Part shown: positions 11,756 through 43,050 of the stretch, piece after piece
How positions within the stretch are numbered: the stretch's first letter is position 1
Layout: every line of letters starts with the position of its first letter
Origin: Armatimonadota bacterium
GTDB lineage: Bacteria > Armatimonadota > Fimbriimonadia > Fimbriimonadales > Fimbriimonadaceae
Length of the DNA: 64,000 nt
Reading direction: 5' to 3'
NCBI GenBank assembly: GCA_025360125.1
Contig: JANYCU010000036.1
Span: 1-64,000 of the forward strand
The notes under the pieces: model-generated
The model's input: only the letters and a program-made list of their open reading frames with translations
What the model was told of the DNA's origin: nothing
The model's database searches: none
Made by a program: the position numbers and the translations under genes

Positions 11756-11784
11756 AGTGTATCTCTTGTTTGGAGCGATGGCGA
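11756..11784 (-). promoter_or_regulatory. Candidate leaderless promoter of the ppx-wecB operon
   Basis: Read on the minus strand, TACACT (11756-11761) ends 8 nt before the ATG at 11747. A -35-like TCGCCA (11779-11784) stands 17 bp upstream and is formed by the first units of the hexanucleotide repeat. There is no Shine-Dalgarno before the ATG, so transcription would start at or very near the start codon. Confidence 0.45.
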
Positions 11785-11924
11785 TGGCGATGGCGATGGC
11801 GATGGCGATGGCGATGGCGATGGCGATGGCGATGGCGATGGCGATGGCGATGGCGATGGCGATGGCGAGGGCGAGGGCGAGGGCGAGGGCGAGGGCGAGG
11901 GCGAGGGCAAGTGCAAGTGCGAGG
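11775..11924. repeat. Hexanucleotide tandem repeat (GCGATG, GCGAGG, GCAAGT)
   Basis: Fifteen exact copies of GCGATG (11775-11864) are followed by seven of GCGAGG (11865-11906), two of GCAAGT (11907-11918) and a final GCGAGG. The blocks are internally perfect, as expected from recent slippage, and differ from each other by one or two bases. The tract lies between the divergent ppx and xylB genes. It is free of stops in several frames (Asp-Gly, Met-Ala or Arg-Trp plus-strand; Ser-Pro minus-strand) and so produces false long frames. Confidence 0.97.
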
Positions 11925-35398: not shown

Positions 35399-35415
35399 GG
35401 CCCAGCTGTAACTCG

Positions 35416-35501
35416 ACTGTTGGAGGGCTGGAAGCCCACCCTCCATATGTCATCGCTGCGAGTTTGGTGACGGTGTTCCAGTTTCGTCCGGTCCAGGATT
35501 T
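35416..35501. repeat. 86-bp direct repeat, copy 1 (with internal palindrome)
   Basis: This copy differs from copy 2 (35536-35621) at only two bases, and the offset is exactly 120 bp. Its start holds the palindrome TGGAGGG...CCCTCCA. It is noncoding and looks like a duplicate of the 3' end of the DUF1697 gene. Confidence 0.95.
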
Positions 35502-35528
35502 CCCTCTTCAATTATAAGTGTCAAGCTG

Positions 35529-36095
35529 TCAGTCAACTGTTGGAGGGCTGGAAGCCCACCCTCCATATGTCATAGCCGCGAGTTTGGTGACGGTGTTCCA
35601 GTTTCGTCCGGTCCAGGATTTGCCGAGCTTGCGATCGAGTTGGGAAGTCAGTTTGGAGTCGCCGATTCCGTCGGGGAAGATTGCGTAGATGTGTTGACCG
35701 TCGGCTTGGATGACCTCGCGGCCGACGATGCTGCCTTGGAGGAGAGCAAGATCTTTCTCAGCGGGGACCGATTTCATGAATAGAACGAGGAAATGGCCTG
35801 GATCTTGGATGGCTTCGTCAGGAAACGGGTTTCGCTCGATGACGGAGGCGAGGTCGGCAGGGGTTCGGACGACGAACTCGGTAGTTAGTTCAAATCGTTG
35901 CTCGACTTGTTGGGAGAGATAGGTTTCGAGCTCTTTGAGGTCGCGATCTTCGGATTCGAAAACGACATTACCACTCTGGAGGAGGGTTTGGACTTTGGTG
36001 AATCCGAGTTCGGTTAGAAATTCGCGGAGGTCTCCCATCGAGAGTTTCTTGTTCCCGCCGACATTTATTCCCCTTAAGAACGCAATGACTATCAA
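35529..36095 (-). CDS. DUF1697 family protein
   Basis: A 188-residue protein of the DUF1697 family, function unknown. The N-terminal AFLRGINVGGNKKLSM and the C-terminal GRNWNTVTKLAAM blocks are the family signatures, and QSGNVVFES near residue 40 fits as well. The start is TTG at 36095, with TAAACT (36102-36107, minus) 6 nt upstream. The last 11 residues (GGWASSPPTVD) come from a repeat palindrome and are unlikely to be ancestral. It is divergent from the Tricorn-like gene. Confidence 0.85.
   Translation of the reverse strand: MIVIAFLRGINVGGNKKLSMGDLREFLTELGFTKVQTLLQSGNVVFESEDRDLKELETYLSQQVEQRFELTTEFVVRTPADLASVIERNPFPDEAIQDPGHFLVLFMKSVPAEKDLALLQGSIVGREVIQADGQHIYAIFPDGIGDSKLTSQLDRKLGKSWTGRNWNTVTKLAAMTYGGWASSPPTVD
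35536..35621. repeat. 86-bp direct repeat, copy 2 (inside the DUF1697 3' end)
   Basis: This copy is the 3' end of the minus-strand DUF1697 gene. The palindrome TGGAGGG...CCCTCCA encodes the last residues GGWASSPP before the stop, so the gene's C-terminus is partly repeat-derived. Confidence 0.95.
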
Positions 36096-40945: not shown

Positions 40946-41015
40946 GAAAGGAAAGGAAAGGAAAGGAAAGGAAAGGAAAGGAAAGGAAAGGAAAGGAAAG
41001 GAAAGGAAAGGAAAG
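40946..41015. repeat. Pentanucleotide tandem repeat (GAAAG x14)
   Basis: Fourteen exact GAAAG units are followed by a variant GAAAA. The tract ends about 20 bp upstream of the -35 box of the Cys-rich peptide cassette. A pentamer gain or loss changes helical phase by half a turn. Confidence 0.97.
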
Positions 41016-41036
41016 GAAAAAATGTTTGAACAAACG

Positions 41037-41065
41037 TTGACATAATTCGATTAAAAGCATAAAAT
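41037..41065 (+). promoter_or_regulatory. Near-consensus promoter of the Cys-rich peptide cassette
   Basis: TTGACA (41037-41042), a 17-bp AT-rich spacer and TAAAAT (41060-41065) form the best sigma-70-type promoter seen in the window. The ATG at 41075 follows after 9 nt, so the mRNA has almost no leader. Confidence 0.8.
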
Positions 41066-41074
41066 GCAAATGTC

Positions 41075-41311
41075 ATGAGAGGATTCATCCCGATATTAGC
41101 CGCTTGCCTTTTGTTCGTCGCTGGTTTTGCCCTCGGTGAAGGTACCATTCCAGGCAAATGGCCTGATTGTTCGCACACAACTGAGGTTAACTGCTCCGTC
41201 AAAGAGACAAAACTTGAATGCTACAATTGTTGTATTGACCATTGCCCAATTTTTGCGGAACACGCCGCCTGTTCTAACTGCTGCAACAATCCTGGAAACT
41301 GCTCCAATTGA
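41075..41311 (+). CDS. Small secreted cysteine-rich protein
   Basis: A 78-residue precursor. Residues 1-21 are a clear signal peptide (ILAACLLFVAGFALG). The mature part of about 57 residues holds ten cysteines, including two CC pairs in NCCIDHC and NCCNNPGNC, arranged as in disulfide-rich peptides. No known bacteriocin or toxin family is recognised. It is the first gene of a four-gene overlapping unit whose last gene is a membrane-anchored CPPC thioredoxin, which could oxidise it. Its stop overlaps the start of the next gene (TTGA). The protein could also bind metal through the cysteines. Confidence 0.75.
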   Translation: MRGFIPILAACLLFVAGFALGEGTIPGKWPDCSHTTEVNCSVKETKLECYNCCIDHCPIFAEHAACSNCCNNPGNCSN

Positions 41312-41772
41312 AAATCCGGCCACTTTACCTAATAGCCGCAGTGTCCGGGCTAACAGCTTCTGTGTGGCACATTATCATTCGGCCAAAGAACGATCTTGAA
41401 TTGGGCTCTAGAGGCGCAACTCTTGGAATTCCTAACGACTCTGATTACAAAGAGGCCTCCGAATTAGTTAATTCGAAGGCAATAAAGGAATTGAATCCAG
41501 ATATTAAACCCAAATTGCATATTTGGGCTCGGAAAGAGCAAAGCATGCTGTTTTCGACTCTCATTCTGGCCAATTTTAGGAACGAGGGCCTGATGTCTGA
41601 GTTTGTCCCCGATTTGAAAGTTATGAGAGGATCCAAAGGAATGGATGAATCGGTCAAGACGGTGATGAAGGTGTGGAATCAAAACGGATTTTCGGACAAA
41701 GTCAAAAGTATTAGCAAAGATAAGAATTCAGGTATTCAAGATTTAGCCGATGAAGCACTCAAAGAAAAATAG
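41308..41772 (+). CDS. Hypothetical membrane-anchored protein
   Basis: A 154-residue protein of unknown family. The TTG at 41308 overlaps the stop of the Cys-rich gene by 4 nt, so the two are translationally coupled. Residues 6-22 form one hydrophobic segment (LYLIAAVSGLTASVW), an anchor or uncleaved signal. The rest is charged and helical, with no cysteine and no recognised motif. It overlaps the next gene by 23 bp. Its position between a secreted cysteine-rich peptide and a pseudopilin suggests a part in export or processing, but nothing in the sequence proves this. Confidence 0.65.
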   Translation: MKIRPLYLIAAVSGLTASVWHIIIRPKNDLELGSRGATLGIPNDSDYKEASELVNSKAIKELNPDIKPKLHIWARKEQSMLFSTLILANFRNEGLMSEFVPDLKVMRGSKGMDESVKTVMKVWNQNGFSDKVKSISKDKNSGIQDLADEALKEK

Positions 41773-42415
41773 TCTCGGCAAGGCATTCACACTCGTTGAA
41801 TTGCTATGCGTAATATTTATAATCGCAGCTCTTTCGAGTATCGTTCTTCCTGTCTTTATCAATGCAAAGCTCTCAGCAAAAATAGTCTCGTGTGTCAGTA
41901 ACTTGCGCCAGATTGGAATTATTTCTAACCTCTATCAGGCGGACAATGATGATACCTATCCATACGGTATCAACGGAGTAGAACGAATTGGAGCGGGACC
42001 CTCTTTCGGGCGCCCCGCAGGCTCGAACGCGAGCGATTATCCCTTGCAGAGCCAGGCAATTTCTGCCTATTATTCGAATCGCTCGATTTTTGTTTGCCCC
42101 ACCGATACAGGTCGCTCATTTCTTTCAGCCCCCCCGACGAATCGATTAGCGGATGTAAATGACGGATCAAGTTATTTTTGCTCAGACCTTTTAGAGGGCC
42201 AGACTTCTTCAACGTGGCCGAATCCATCAGCGAATGGATATTGCTCTGATGGCTCGGACTTTTGGCATCTTGGATATTCCAAGGCAGATAGAGAGGCAAT
42301 GAGTGAAGAAGGAAAAGCGGCTTTATCCAAGAAGAACTTGTTGTTTTATGACGGGCATGTCAAAAGTGTAAAGACACAAGTAATTTGTTGGAACCTTCAA
42401 TCATGTTCTCCGTAG
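41750..42415 (+). CDS. Type II secretion/type IV pilus-type pseudopilin, DUF1559-like
   Basis: A 221-residue protein with a type III prepilin signal, KAFTLVELLCVIFIIAALSSIVLP, in two parts: the peptidase site and the hydrophobic helix that packs pilus cores. The residue before the cleavage site is Ala rather than the usual Gly. The C-terminal LFYDGHVKSVKTQVICWN is the DG-type signature typical of DUF1559 and related pseudopilins in this group. Such proteins form short pseudopili or are processed membrane proteins of unknown role. It overlaps both its neighbours. Confidence 0.85.
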   Translation: MKHSKKNSLGKAFTLVELLCVIFIIAALSSIVLPVFINAKLSAKIVSCVSNLRQIGIISNLYQADNDDTYPYGINGVERIGAGPSFGRPAGSNASDYPLQSQAISAYYSNRSIFVCPTDTGRSFLSAPPTNRLADVNDGSSYFCSDLLEGQTSSTWPNPSANGYCSDGSDFWHLGYSKADREAMSEEGKAALSKKNLLFYDGHVKSVKTQVICWNLQSCSP

Positions 42416-43050
42416 CCCAAAAGCAAACCTTATTGAGGCGATTCCCTTGGATCGTCCTTGGTATTGTAACGGCAATTGGAATCATTGGTCTCGTCAAAAT
42501 CGCTCGGGATCCTTACATGTCAGGAGCTTTGTATGTGGAAGTGACCTATCCAGCTGCGCCGTTGATTGATGTAAGTCGCCCACTGGAAAAGCGGAGGGAA
42601 TTTAGGTTGCAGATTATTGAGTTCATGGATTATGAGTGTCCGCCCTGTCGCGCATTTGCTAAGAAGCTGGAAGCGTTGGAAGAAAACCCGCAGGTGGAAA
42701 TCAGAATAGCCAACTTCCCACTTTCCATACACAAAACGGCAATGCCGTTTGCCAAAGCAATGCTGACTGTACCAGATGATCAATTTAGATTCATCCATAA
42801 GCAATTTCTCGAAATTAAGCTCTTTGATGCACAAATTCGAGTCCTCAAGCTAGACCAAGACTTTAAGAAAAAAAGTGTAGCGGATCGTCAATTAATAGAG
42901 AACCGAATAAAATCTGGGCTAAGAGCGGCGGAAACTTATAATGTAAACAGCACGCCAACTGCCTTCATCTATCGGCACATTGACAATAAGCTATTCAAAG
43001 TGATTGATCTTTCGAAATTGTCCGAAGTAGTGGCAGTCCTTTCAAAGTAG
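42403..43050 (+). CDS. Membrane-anchored DsbA-like thiol oxidoreductase
   Basis: A 215-residue protein from ATG 42403 (a TTG at 42385 is possible). Residues about 13-33 are a transmembrane anchor. The DsbA/thioredoxin-type domain has the redox motif CPPC (YECPPCRAFAKKLE), and the cis-proline loop NSTPTAFIY near 180. The Pro-rich active site is like that of VKOR/BdbD-type and secreted DsbA relatives. It would form or reshuffle disulfides outside the cytoplasm. Its likely substrate is the 10-cysteine protein of the same unit. It ends 3 bp before the convergent DUF1501 gene. Confidence 0.85.
   Translation: MFSVAQKQTLLRRFPWIVLGIVTAIGIIGLVKIARDPYMSGALYVEVTYPAAPLIDVSRPLEKRREFRLQIIEFMDYECPPCRAFAKKLEALEENPQVEIRIANFPLSIHKTAMPFAKAMLTVPDDQFRFIHKQFLEIKLFDAQIRVLKLDQDFKKKSVADRQLIENRIKSGLRAAETYNVNSTPTAFIYRHIDNKLFKVIDLSKLSEVVAVLSK

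Follow-up and report, generated by a model that had tools for sequence, protein, structure and literature searches.

The window (the whole 64-kb stretch of DNA that was analyzed, from the source genome G000 of 4.13 Mb in 58 contigs) carries four genes on the + strand at positions 41075–43050, and the ORFs overlap at each junction. They encode a Sec-exported Cys-rich peptide of 78 aa (41075–41311), a membrane-anchored protein of 154 aa with a TTG start and a TM helix (41308–41772), a type IV prepilin or pseudopilin of 221 aa (41750–42415), and a putative membrane-anchored disulfide oxidase of the DsbA/BdbD type with a CPPC motif (42403–43050). The gene of the anchored protein overlaps the peptide stop by 4 nt, the prepilin gene overlaps the anchored gene by 23 nt, and the oxidase gene, for which ATG 42403 was the best start (TTG 42385 is possible), overlaps the prepilin gene by 13 nt. 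The ORFs are therefore where the sequence-only reading had placed a peptide, an anchored protein, a pseudopilin and a CPPC thioredoxin. Two features absent from that reading precede the genes, namely, an intergenic (GAAAG)14.8 array (40946–41019) and a strong predicted promoter of the sigma-70 type (41037–41065, + strand).

Products of the four genes

The mature peptide had been read as 57 residues with ten Cys, and this held, since all ten Cys lie past the predicted signal cut near residue 21. The signature of the mature part was WPxC-C-C-x2-CC-x3-C-C-x2-CC-C. In an alignment of 11 copies, the Trp-Pro pair just before the first Cys was invariant and most Cys columns were invariant or nearly so, with almost nothing else kept, and the identity between copies was 26–41%. 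Of 18 mature peptides, 17 had an even Cys count, in keeping with the pairing of all Cys in disulfides, although this figure carries less weight because the sequences are related; most of the mature peptides were acidic. Pfam and NCBIfam gave no family match for the peptide. Its AlphaFold model, of low confidence (pLDDT 64), had two short helices bearing most of the Cys (25–35 and 42–50), and a Foldseek search with this model returned zero structural matches. Alpha-hairpinins have two helices joined by CxxxC pairs; against the two helices of this low-confidence model stand hairpinin matches at no better than E about 0.8.

For the anchored protein of the window, no family match was found in Pfam or NCBIfam, nothing was found by Foldseek at E ≤ 0.001, and no match was found in a plasmid search. 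Three Pfam matches, each to one of eleven anchored proteins, were at chance level and have no bearing. The AlphaFold model of a homologue (L134 of genome G019, 176 aa), the input alignment of which included the anchored protein of the window, showed eight helices behind a TM helix (mean pLDDT 82.8). The VIA-align rows for this model were dominated by HEAT/ARM chains, many with Z of 8–10.5 (adaptins, importin alpha, YibA and designed repeats), a result that, for helical repeats, a shared arrangement alone may explain; PF13646 (HEAT_2) matched three cassette homologues weakly, below its cut-off. On the basis of the model, the anchored protein is read as a putative protein-binding scaffold on the periplasmic side.

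The prepilin had a cleavage-type N-terminus (A↓FTLVELL) and six Cys in its globular part. It matched TIGR02532 at 21.5 bits, over the cut-off of 16.3, and thereby has the class III signal with a conserved Glu and a hydrophobic helix; the score for Pfam N_methyl was 19.9 bits, just below the cut-off of 21.2. Assignment to the major pseudopilin GspG of type II secretion systems (T2SS) was rejected (TIGR01710, 29 bits against a cut-off of 88.85). A homologous pilin adjoins the peptide gene in other copies, and across copies the globular part holds 2–6 Cys; thus, the oxidase may serve the pilin too. The genome itself contained ten matches to T2SS/type IV pilus (T4P) ATPases, possibly including retraction ATPases, and five secretins.

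The oxidase matched Thioredoxin_4 (PF13462, 45.2 bits, cut-off 23.2) and DSBA (PF01323, 31.1 bits, cut-off 25.6), and its solved relatives by profile were BdbD, ScsC and DsbA. In ten oxidase copies, C79/C82 and T184-P185 of the cis-Pro TP loop were invariant, as was the DY-x-C context. An N-terminal TM anchor precedes the thioredoxin-fold domain, and the genome contained one VKOR; together, the anchor and the host VKOR are consistent with oxidation in the periplasm by the predicted oxidase. Both protein descriptions given earlier were corrected: the anchored protein has a probable helical-repeat, HEAT/ARM-like character, and the CPPC thioredoxin was refined by Pfam to the DsbA/BdbD type.

Recurrence of the cassette

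A clean test of the association between the genes was made with the window peptide alone as the query against 85 genomes of the family, the neighbors being unused in the search. This single-sequence search found five further places at E ≤ 0.012; the anchored gene and the pilin lay beside all five and the oxidase beside four. At one of these loci (L013), a prepilin of another subtype was located about 2 kb further on, past a TPR-sulfotransferase gene. Three weaker matches (L015–L017, E = 0.013–0.08) had none of the partner genes alongside and, like L048 and L049 (E above 0.002), were taken as chance, the cassette being absent on inspection. When a profile of the window peptide and the five newly found ones was run against 291 genomes of the phylum, six more places appeared at E ≤ 3.3 × 10−4, with the prepilin and the anchored gene beside all six (the latter broken in one) and the oxidase beside five; an additional WPxC copy, L124, had a frameshifted peptide gene. 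In total, there were 13 cassettes of the WPxC type in nine Armatimonadota genomes of three families, with three each in the genome of the window and in G019; two copies (L011 and L044) were without a recognizable oxidase alongside.

The oxidase profile was built from ten cassette oxidases, and their own top rank is therefore not evidence; only the second-tier finds, mostly at 97–125 bits, count. The second tier contained at least eight more cassettes (L094, L096, L099, L102, L104, L105, L107 and L108) with other Cys-rich peptides of 8–12 Cys. The core C-x2-CC-x3-C ... C-x2-CC returns in these peptides in a looser form, and the Trp-Pro pair is missing from them. A profile recognized the anchored protein of L094, L096, L104 and L108, whereas that of L105 and L107 was identified from its position and a TM helix, and L105 has, in tandem, another anchored gene and another pilin; L099 and L102 were counted without a confirmed anchored protein. 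When the contigs of 84,980 species were scanned with the oxidase profile by a single narrow search pattern, 34 loci were obtained, of which the best four were cassettes and the remaining 30 were DsbA relatives, mostly from other phyla, without the cassette gene set; no spread beyond Armatimonadota emerged with this pattern.

The gene order was nearly constant among copies, and the neighbors differed on both sides in all cassettes examined, which means that the genes stay together as a unit and not through a conserved surrounding region. The cassette sits at many unrelated chromosomal sites, and mobility is a possibility. According to the Mantel test for eight cassettes, the distances of the anchored protein correlated with those of the DsbA-type enzyme (r = 0.82, p = 0.0004), as did those of the peptide (r = 0.40, p = 0.014); the distances of the peptide and the pilin showed no correlation (r = 0.01). 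In-frame stops in the peptide genes of L047 and L108 and frameshifts in L043 (anchored gene) and L124 (peptide gene) may reflect decay or assembly errors. In L047 (~6435) and L108 (~3511), which belong to two genomes, the stop is a TAA early in the mature part of Cys-peptide genes that are otherwise intact.

Thus, the gene order proposed for comparison with other genomes recurs in 13 WPxC and at least eight other cassettes, and the small gene proved to be tied to the CPPC gene, which lay beside four of five and then five of six new places; the refuting outcome named for the small gene thus did not occur. The peptide-only searches support a recurring module in which a Cys-rich peptide exported by Sec goes together with a pilin and with a disulfide oxidase of its own. 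The earlier statement that no named system has this gene set also agrees with Pfam, NCBIfam, PADLOC, PHROGs and the literature searched: PADLOC gave no match of note for the cassette proteins, PHROGs matched only the pilin N-terminus, apart from one weak thioredoxin match, and the literature search, thin in its coverage of subscription journals and preprints, found no description of the set. In the libraries searched, neither the peptide nor the anchored protein nor the combination had a precedent; the enzyme and the pilin are ordinary members of large families.

Several related loci were noticed alongside. Cys-rich secreted proteins of about 115–160 aa with 8–12 Cys were encoded beside a DsbA gene in L120, L121, L129, L112, L113 and L117, where the anchored gene was absent and the pilin mostly absent, representing a simpler pairing of secreted protein and oxidase within this phylum. 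In a locus from Bacteroidetes (L147, 4218–5633), two tandem secreted peptides of 77–82 aa with 8–9 Cys were encoded immediately upstream of a gene of the DsbA type, possibly an analogue outside the phylum. In two genomes from separate families, the gene after the cassette oxidase was a TPR-plus-sulfotransferase gene (L013, 8480–10315; L042, 1–1337), the product of which could sulfate the peptide or a glycan.

Simple-sequence repeats at the promoters

The GAAAG array of the window has a GNAT gene on its upstream side and the peptide gene on its downstream side. It is a perfect pentanucleotide repeat (Tandem Repeats Finder score of 148, 100% matches), and the 15-mer GAAAGGAAAGGAAAG is confined to it within the 4.13 Mb genome. 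The array lies 17 bp upstream of the −35 box of the predicted promoter, TTGACA-17-TAAAAT, which agrees with the consensus at 11 of 12 positions; only 9 nt separate the end of the −10 box from the peptide ATG, so that the mRNA would be nearly leaderless. The 64-kb window holds other intergenic short-unit arrays, and the GAAAG array taken alone is therefore weak evidence of switching. One of the other repeats, (GCGATG)22, occupies 11775–11908 between two genes that we take, from their sequence, to be Ppx/GppA-like and xylulokinase-like. A 120-bp unit present in 1.8 copies with 94% identity (35404–35621) covers the 3′ end of a 188-codon gene on the − strand (35529–36095) and continues beyond it.

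A homopolymer or short tandem repeat was present in the 150 bp upstream of five of 20 cassettes, in a scan performed after the first repeat had been noticed and with most homopolymer tracts near the minimum length scanned; most copies, including the other two in the genome of the window, had none. As background, the same loci contained 14 repeats over 552 kb (0.0038 per 150 bp), several of these 14 being the cassette repeats themselves or repeats at other DsbA loci. L110 and L128 had 12 consecutive C upstream of the oxidase, close to where a sigma-factor gene has its 3′ end, and L130 had C14 inside the oxidase gene. Genome G132 contained two cassettes with different peptide types, and in both a G9 tract was found in the −35/−10 region, with TTGACA or TTGACC on one side and a −10-like box on the other. 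There were nine G9+ tracts in the 4.2 Mb of this genome, two of them in the cassette promoters (P about 2 × 10−7 for the position), and the other seven adjoined secreted-protein or pilin genes. As read from sequence, this is the pattern of a putative phase-variable set of surface and secreted genes. In the window copy and in both G132 copies, a short repeat tract thus adjoins the promoter or lies within it, and the promoter repeats of several copies, that of the window included, are candidate phase-variation tracts that probably turn the module on or off from cell to cell.

Further tracts were observed in two of the genomes. In G132 (L224, L225, L226 and L228), several large secreted proteins had poly-G or poly-C tracts of 9–13 where they begin, and a repeat-rich start with GGTKYGLQT is common to some of them, suggesting a wider, possibly phase-variable surface repertoire. 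In G093, two DsbA genes contained runs of 14 and 12 C (L130, 3750–3763; L238, 2533–2544), both located in the linker that follows the TM helix, where slippage would switch the DsbA-type enzyme off; many such tracts occur in this genome, one of them within an FtsZ-like gene.

Proposed function and relation to known systems

From the computed gene set, its conservation and order, the Cys framework, the repeats and the general machinery present in the genome, a partly phase-variable module is proposed in which a Cys-rich peptide is oxidized and, by means of a type IV filament, exported or displayed, a reading to which we give about an even chance. The peptide would leave the cytoplasm by Sec, and its disulfides would be closed in the periplasm by the membrane-anchored CPPC DsbA of the module, itself probably re-oxidized by the VKOR of the genome; oxidation of the peptide by this enzyme is likely. 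We infer the later steps, namely, pilin-dependent export or display, a scaffold role and switching. The HEAT-like anchored protein might act as a scaffold joining peptide, pilin and oxidase, and the pilin of the module would join the general type IV pilus or type II secretion machine of the host, carrying or presenting the peptide as the minor pilin TcpB does TcpF, so that the peptide would be delivered to the cell surface or outside. By analogy with TcpF, the invariant Trp-Pro pair might dock the peptide on the pilin, and in several copies the simple-sequence repeat of the promoter would probably toggle the module between cells. Several results count against this reading: the uncorrelated distances of peptide and pilin, the displaced pilin of another subtype in L013, the two copies that lack a recognizable neighboring oxidase, the Cys of the pilins themselves, the low confidence of the peptide model, and the many copies whose promoters carry no repeat.

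As to the purpose of the peptide, antagonism, adhesion or phage evasion would all fit a variable sequence together with switching. A released antibacterial or anti-predator disulfide peptide, with the pilin aiding its export and the HEAT-like protein providing self-protection, would agree with a small, Sec-exported and stable-looking product that diverges fast around a fixed Cys frame (26–41% identity), with several non-identical copies per genome, and with the patchy distribution and phase-variable-looking promoters; we regard such a competition system as unlikely, however, because no recognized bacteriocin, immunity or ABC-transporter family was found by the Pfam, NCBIfam and PADLOC searches, the mature peptides are mostly acidic, and the anchored protein resembles a protein-binding solenoid and no known immunity fold. 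The antimicrobial role suggested for the peptide in the sequence-only reading accordingly found no specific support, given the acidity of most mature peptides and the cassettes' lack of an immunity or ABC-transporter gene. The oxidase and the peptide, the latter as a periplasmic helper, might instead assist assembly of the pilin, the filament being the sole export. Disulfides made by DsbA in pilins are established in other bacteria, and the cassette pilins have 2–6 Cys in the globular part, but the peptide is the most Cys-constrained part of the module, with an even Cys count in 17 of 18, and in L120, L121 and L129 DsbA is paired with a Cys-rich secreted protein, the pilin being absent; we regard this explanation as improbable.

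The same even counts, together with an oxidase encoded beside nearly all of the peptides, indicate disulfides and render a metal-binding peptide, the other role considered earlier, less likely; no metal transporter or regulator was present in the cassettes or in the flanks inspected. The CxxC and CC motifs and the ScsC-type proteins among the solved relatives of the oxidase would suit a copper- or zinc-binding peptide with an ScsC-like partner, an explanation to which we assign a very small probability. It also appears unlikely that the peptide is the variable tip of a surface adhesin or phage-facing pilus, with phase variation tuning attachment or phage sensitivity, since it is a separate Sec-exported protein unfused to the pilin. 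Such a tip would be in line with the phase-variation-like tracts and with the position of the other G132 poly-G tracts beside secreted-protein or pilin genes, surface structures being a predominant phase-variable class according to a review (PMC11868660).

In its more general form, the reading of oxidation and filament-borne export would mean that Armatimonadota have a hitherto undescribed, partly phase-variable class of modules that equip the general type IV filament with exchangeable peptides rich in disulfides, every module bringing its own peptide, pilin adaptor, scaffold and oxidase; this generalization is tentative and has, in our estimate, somewhat lower odds of being correct than of being wrong. 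If true, one type IV filament would be re-tipped or re-loaded by plug-in modules, each with a disulfide-rich peptide and an oxidase and some of them stochastically switched, type IV filaments would gain peptide delivery as a role besides those already known, and phase variation driven by repeats, so far familiar chiefly from pathogens, would extend to a little-studied environmental phylum. The cassettes are also a source of new disulfide-rich peptide scaffolds open to direct testing.

Among known systems, the Verru_Chthon cassette (TIGR02596–TIGR02600) is likewise a recurring set with a prepilin-type protein, found in another bacterial group; its gene content differs, and with the model of protein D, which has a cut-off of 70, the cassette pilin scored 12.8 bits. 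Bacteriocins of the sublancin type also comprise a small Cys-bearing peptide encoded beside its own thiol-disulfide enzyme. The cassette peptide, in contrast, has ten Cys and a Sec signal, not a double-glycine leader, and the cassettes contain a pilin and a HEAT-like protein but no ABC exporter or immunity gene; on the leader, the transporter and the immunity gene, membership in this type was rejected. With DsbA, BdbD and ScsC, the cassette oxidase has in common the fold family, the CxxC motif, the cis-Pro and probably the periplasmic location, whereas CPPC, the N-terminal TM anchor and the linkage to one kind of peptide gene set it apart. Phase-variable loci of Neisseria (NadA), Haemophilus and Campylobacter resemble the cassettes in having short repeats at the promoters of surface or secreted genes; the cassettes differ in belonging to an environmental phylum, in having repeats at only part of the copies, and in that their switching is predicted.

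Cargo secretion that depends on type IVb pili (TcpF/TcpB of Vibrio cholerae and CofJ/CofB of ETEC) resembles the cassette in that a soluble protein exported by Sec is encoded next to a pilin gene. TcpF, a soluble protein of the pilus operon, docks on the minor pilin TcpB via an aromatic residue in its flexible N-terminus and is then pushed out by the filament (PMC9565799). The counterpart of this aromatic residue in the cassette would be the Trp-Pro pair that is invariant before the first Cys in the 11 WPxC peptides. Both the cargo and the minor pilin of TcpF-type systems are inside a complete T4P operon, and the cassette was not assigned to them, since it has one pilin gene and no pilus machinery, which is encoded elsewhere in the genome. 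The cassette differs further in that its cargo is a Cys-rich peptide of 40–70 residues, that the unit adds a dedicated oxidase and a HEAT-like anchor, and that several copies per genome occupy unrelated sites. By this analogy, the cassette may work like pilus-borne cargo export.
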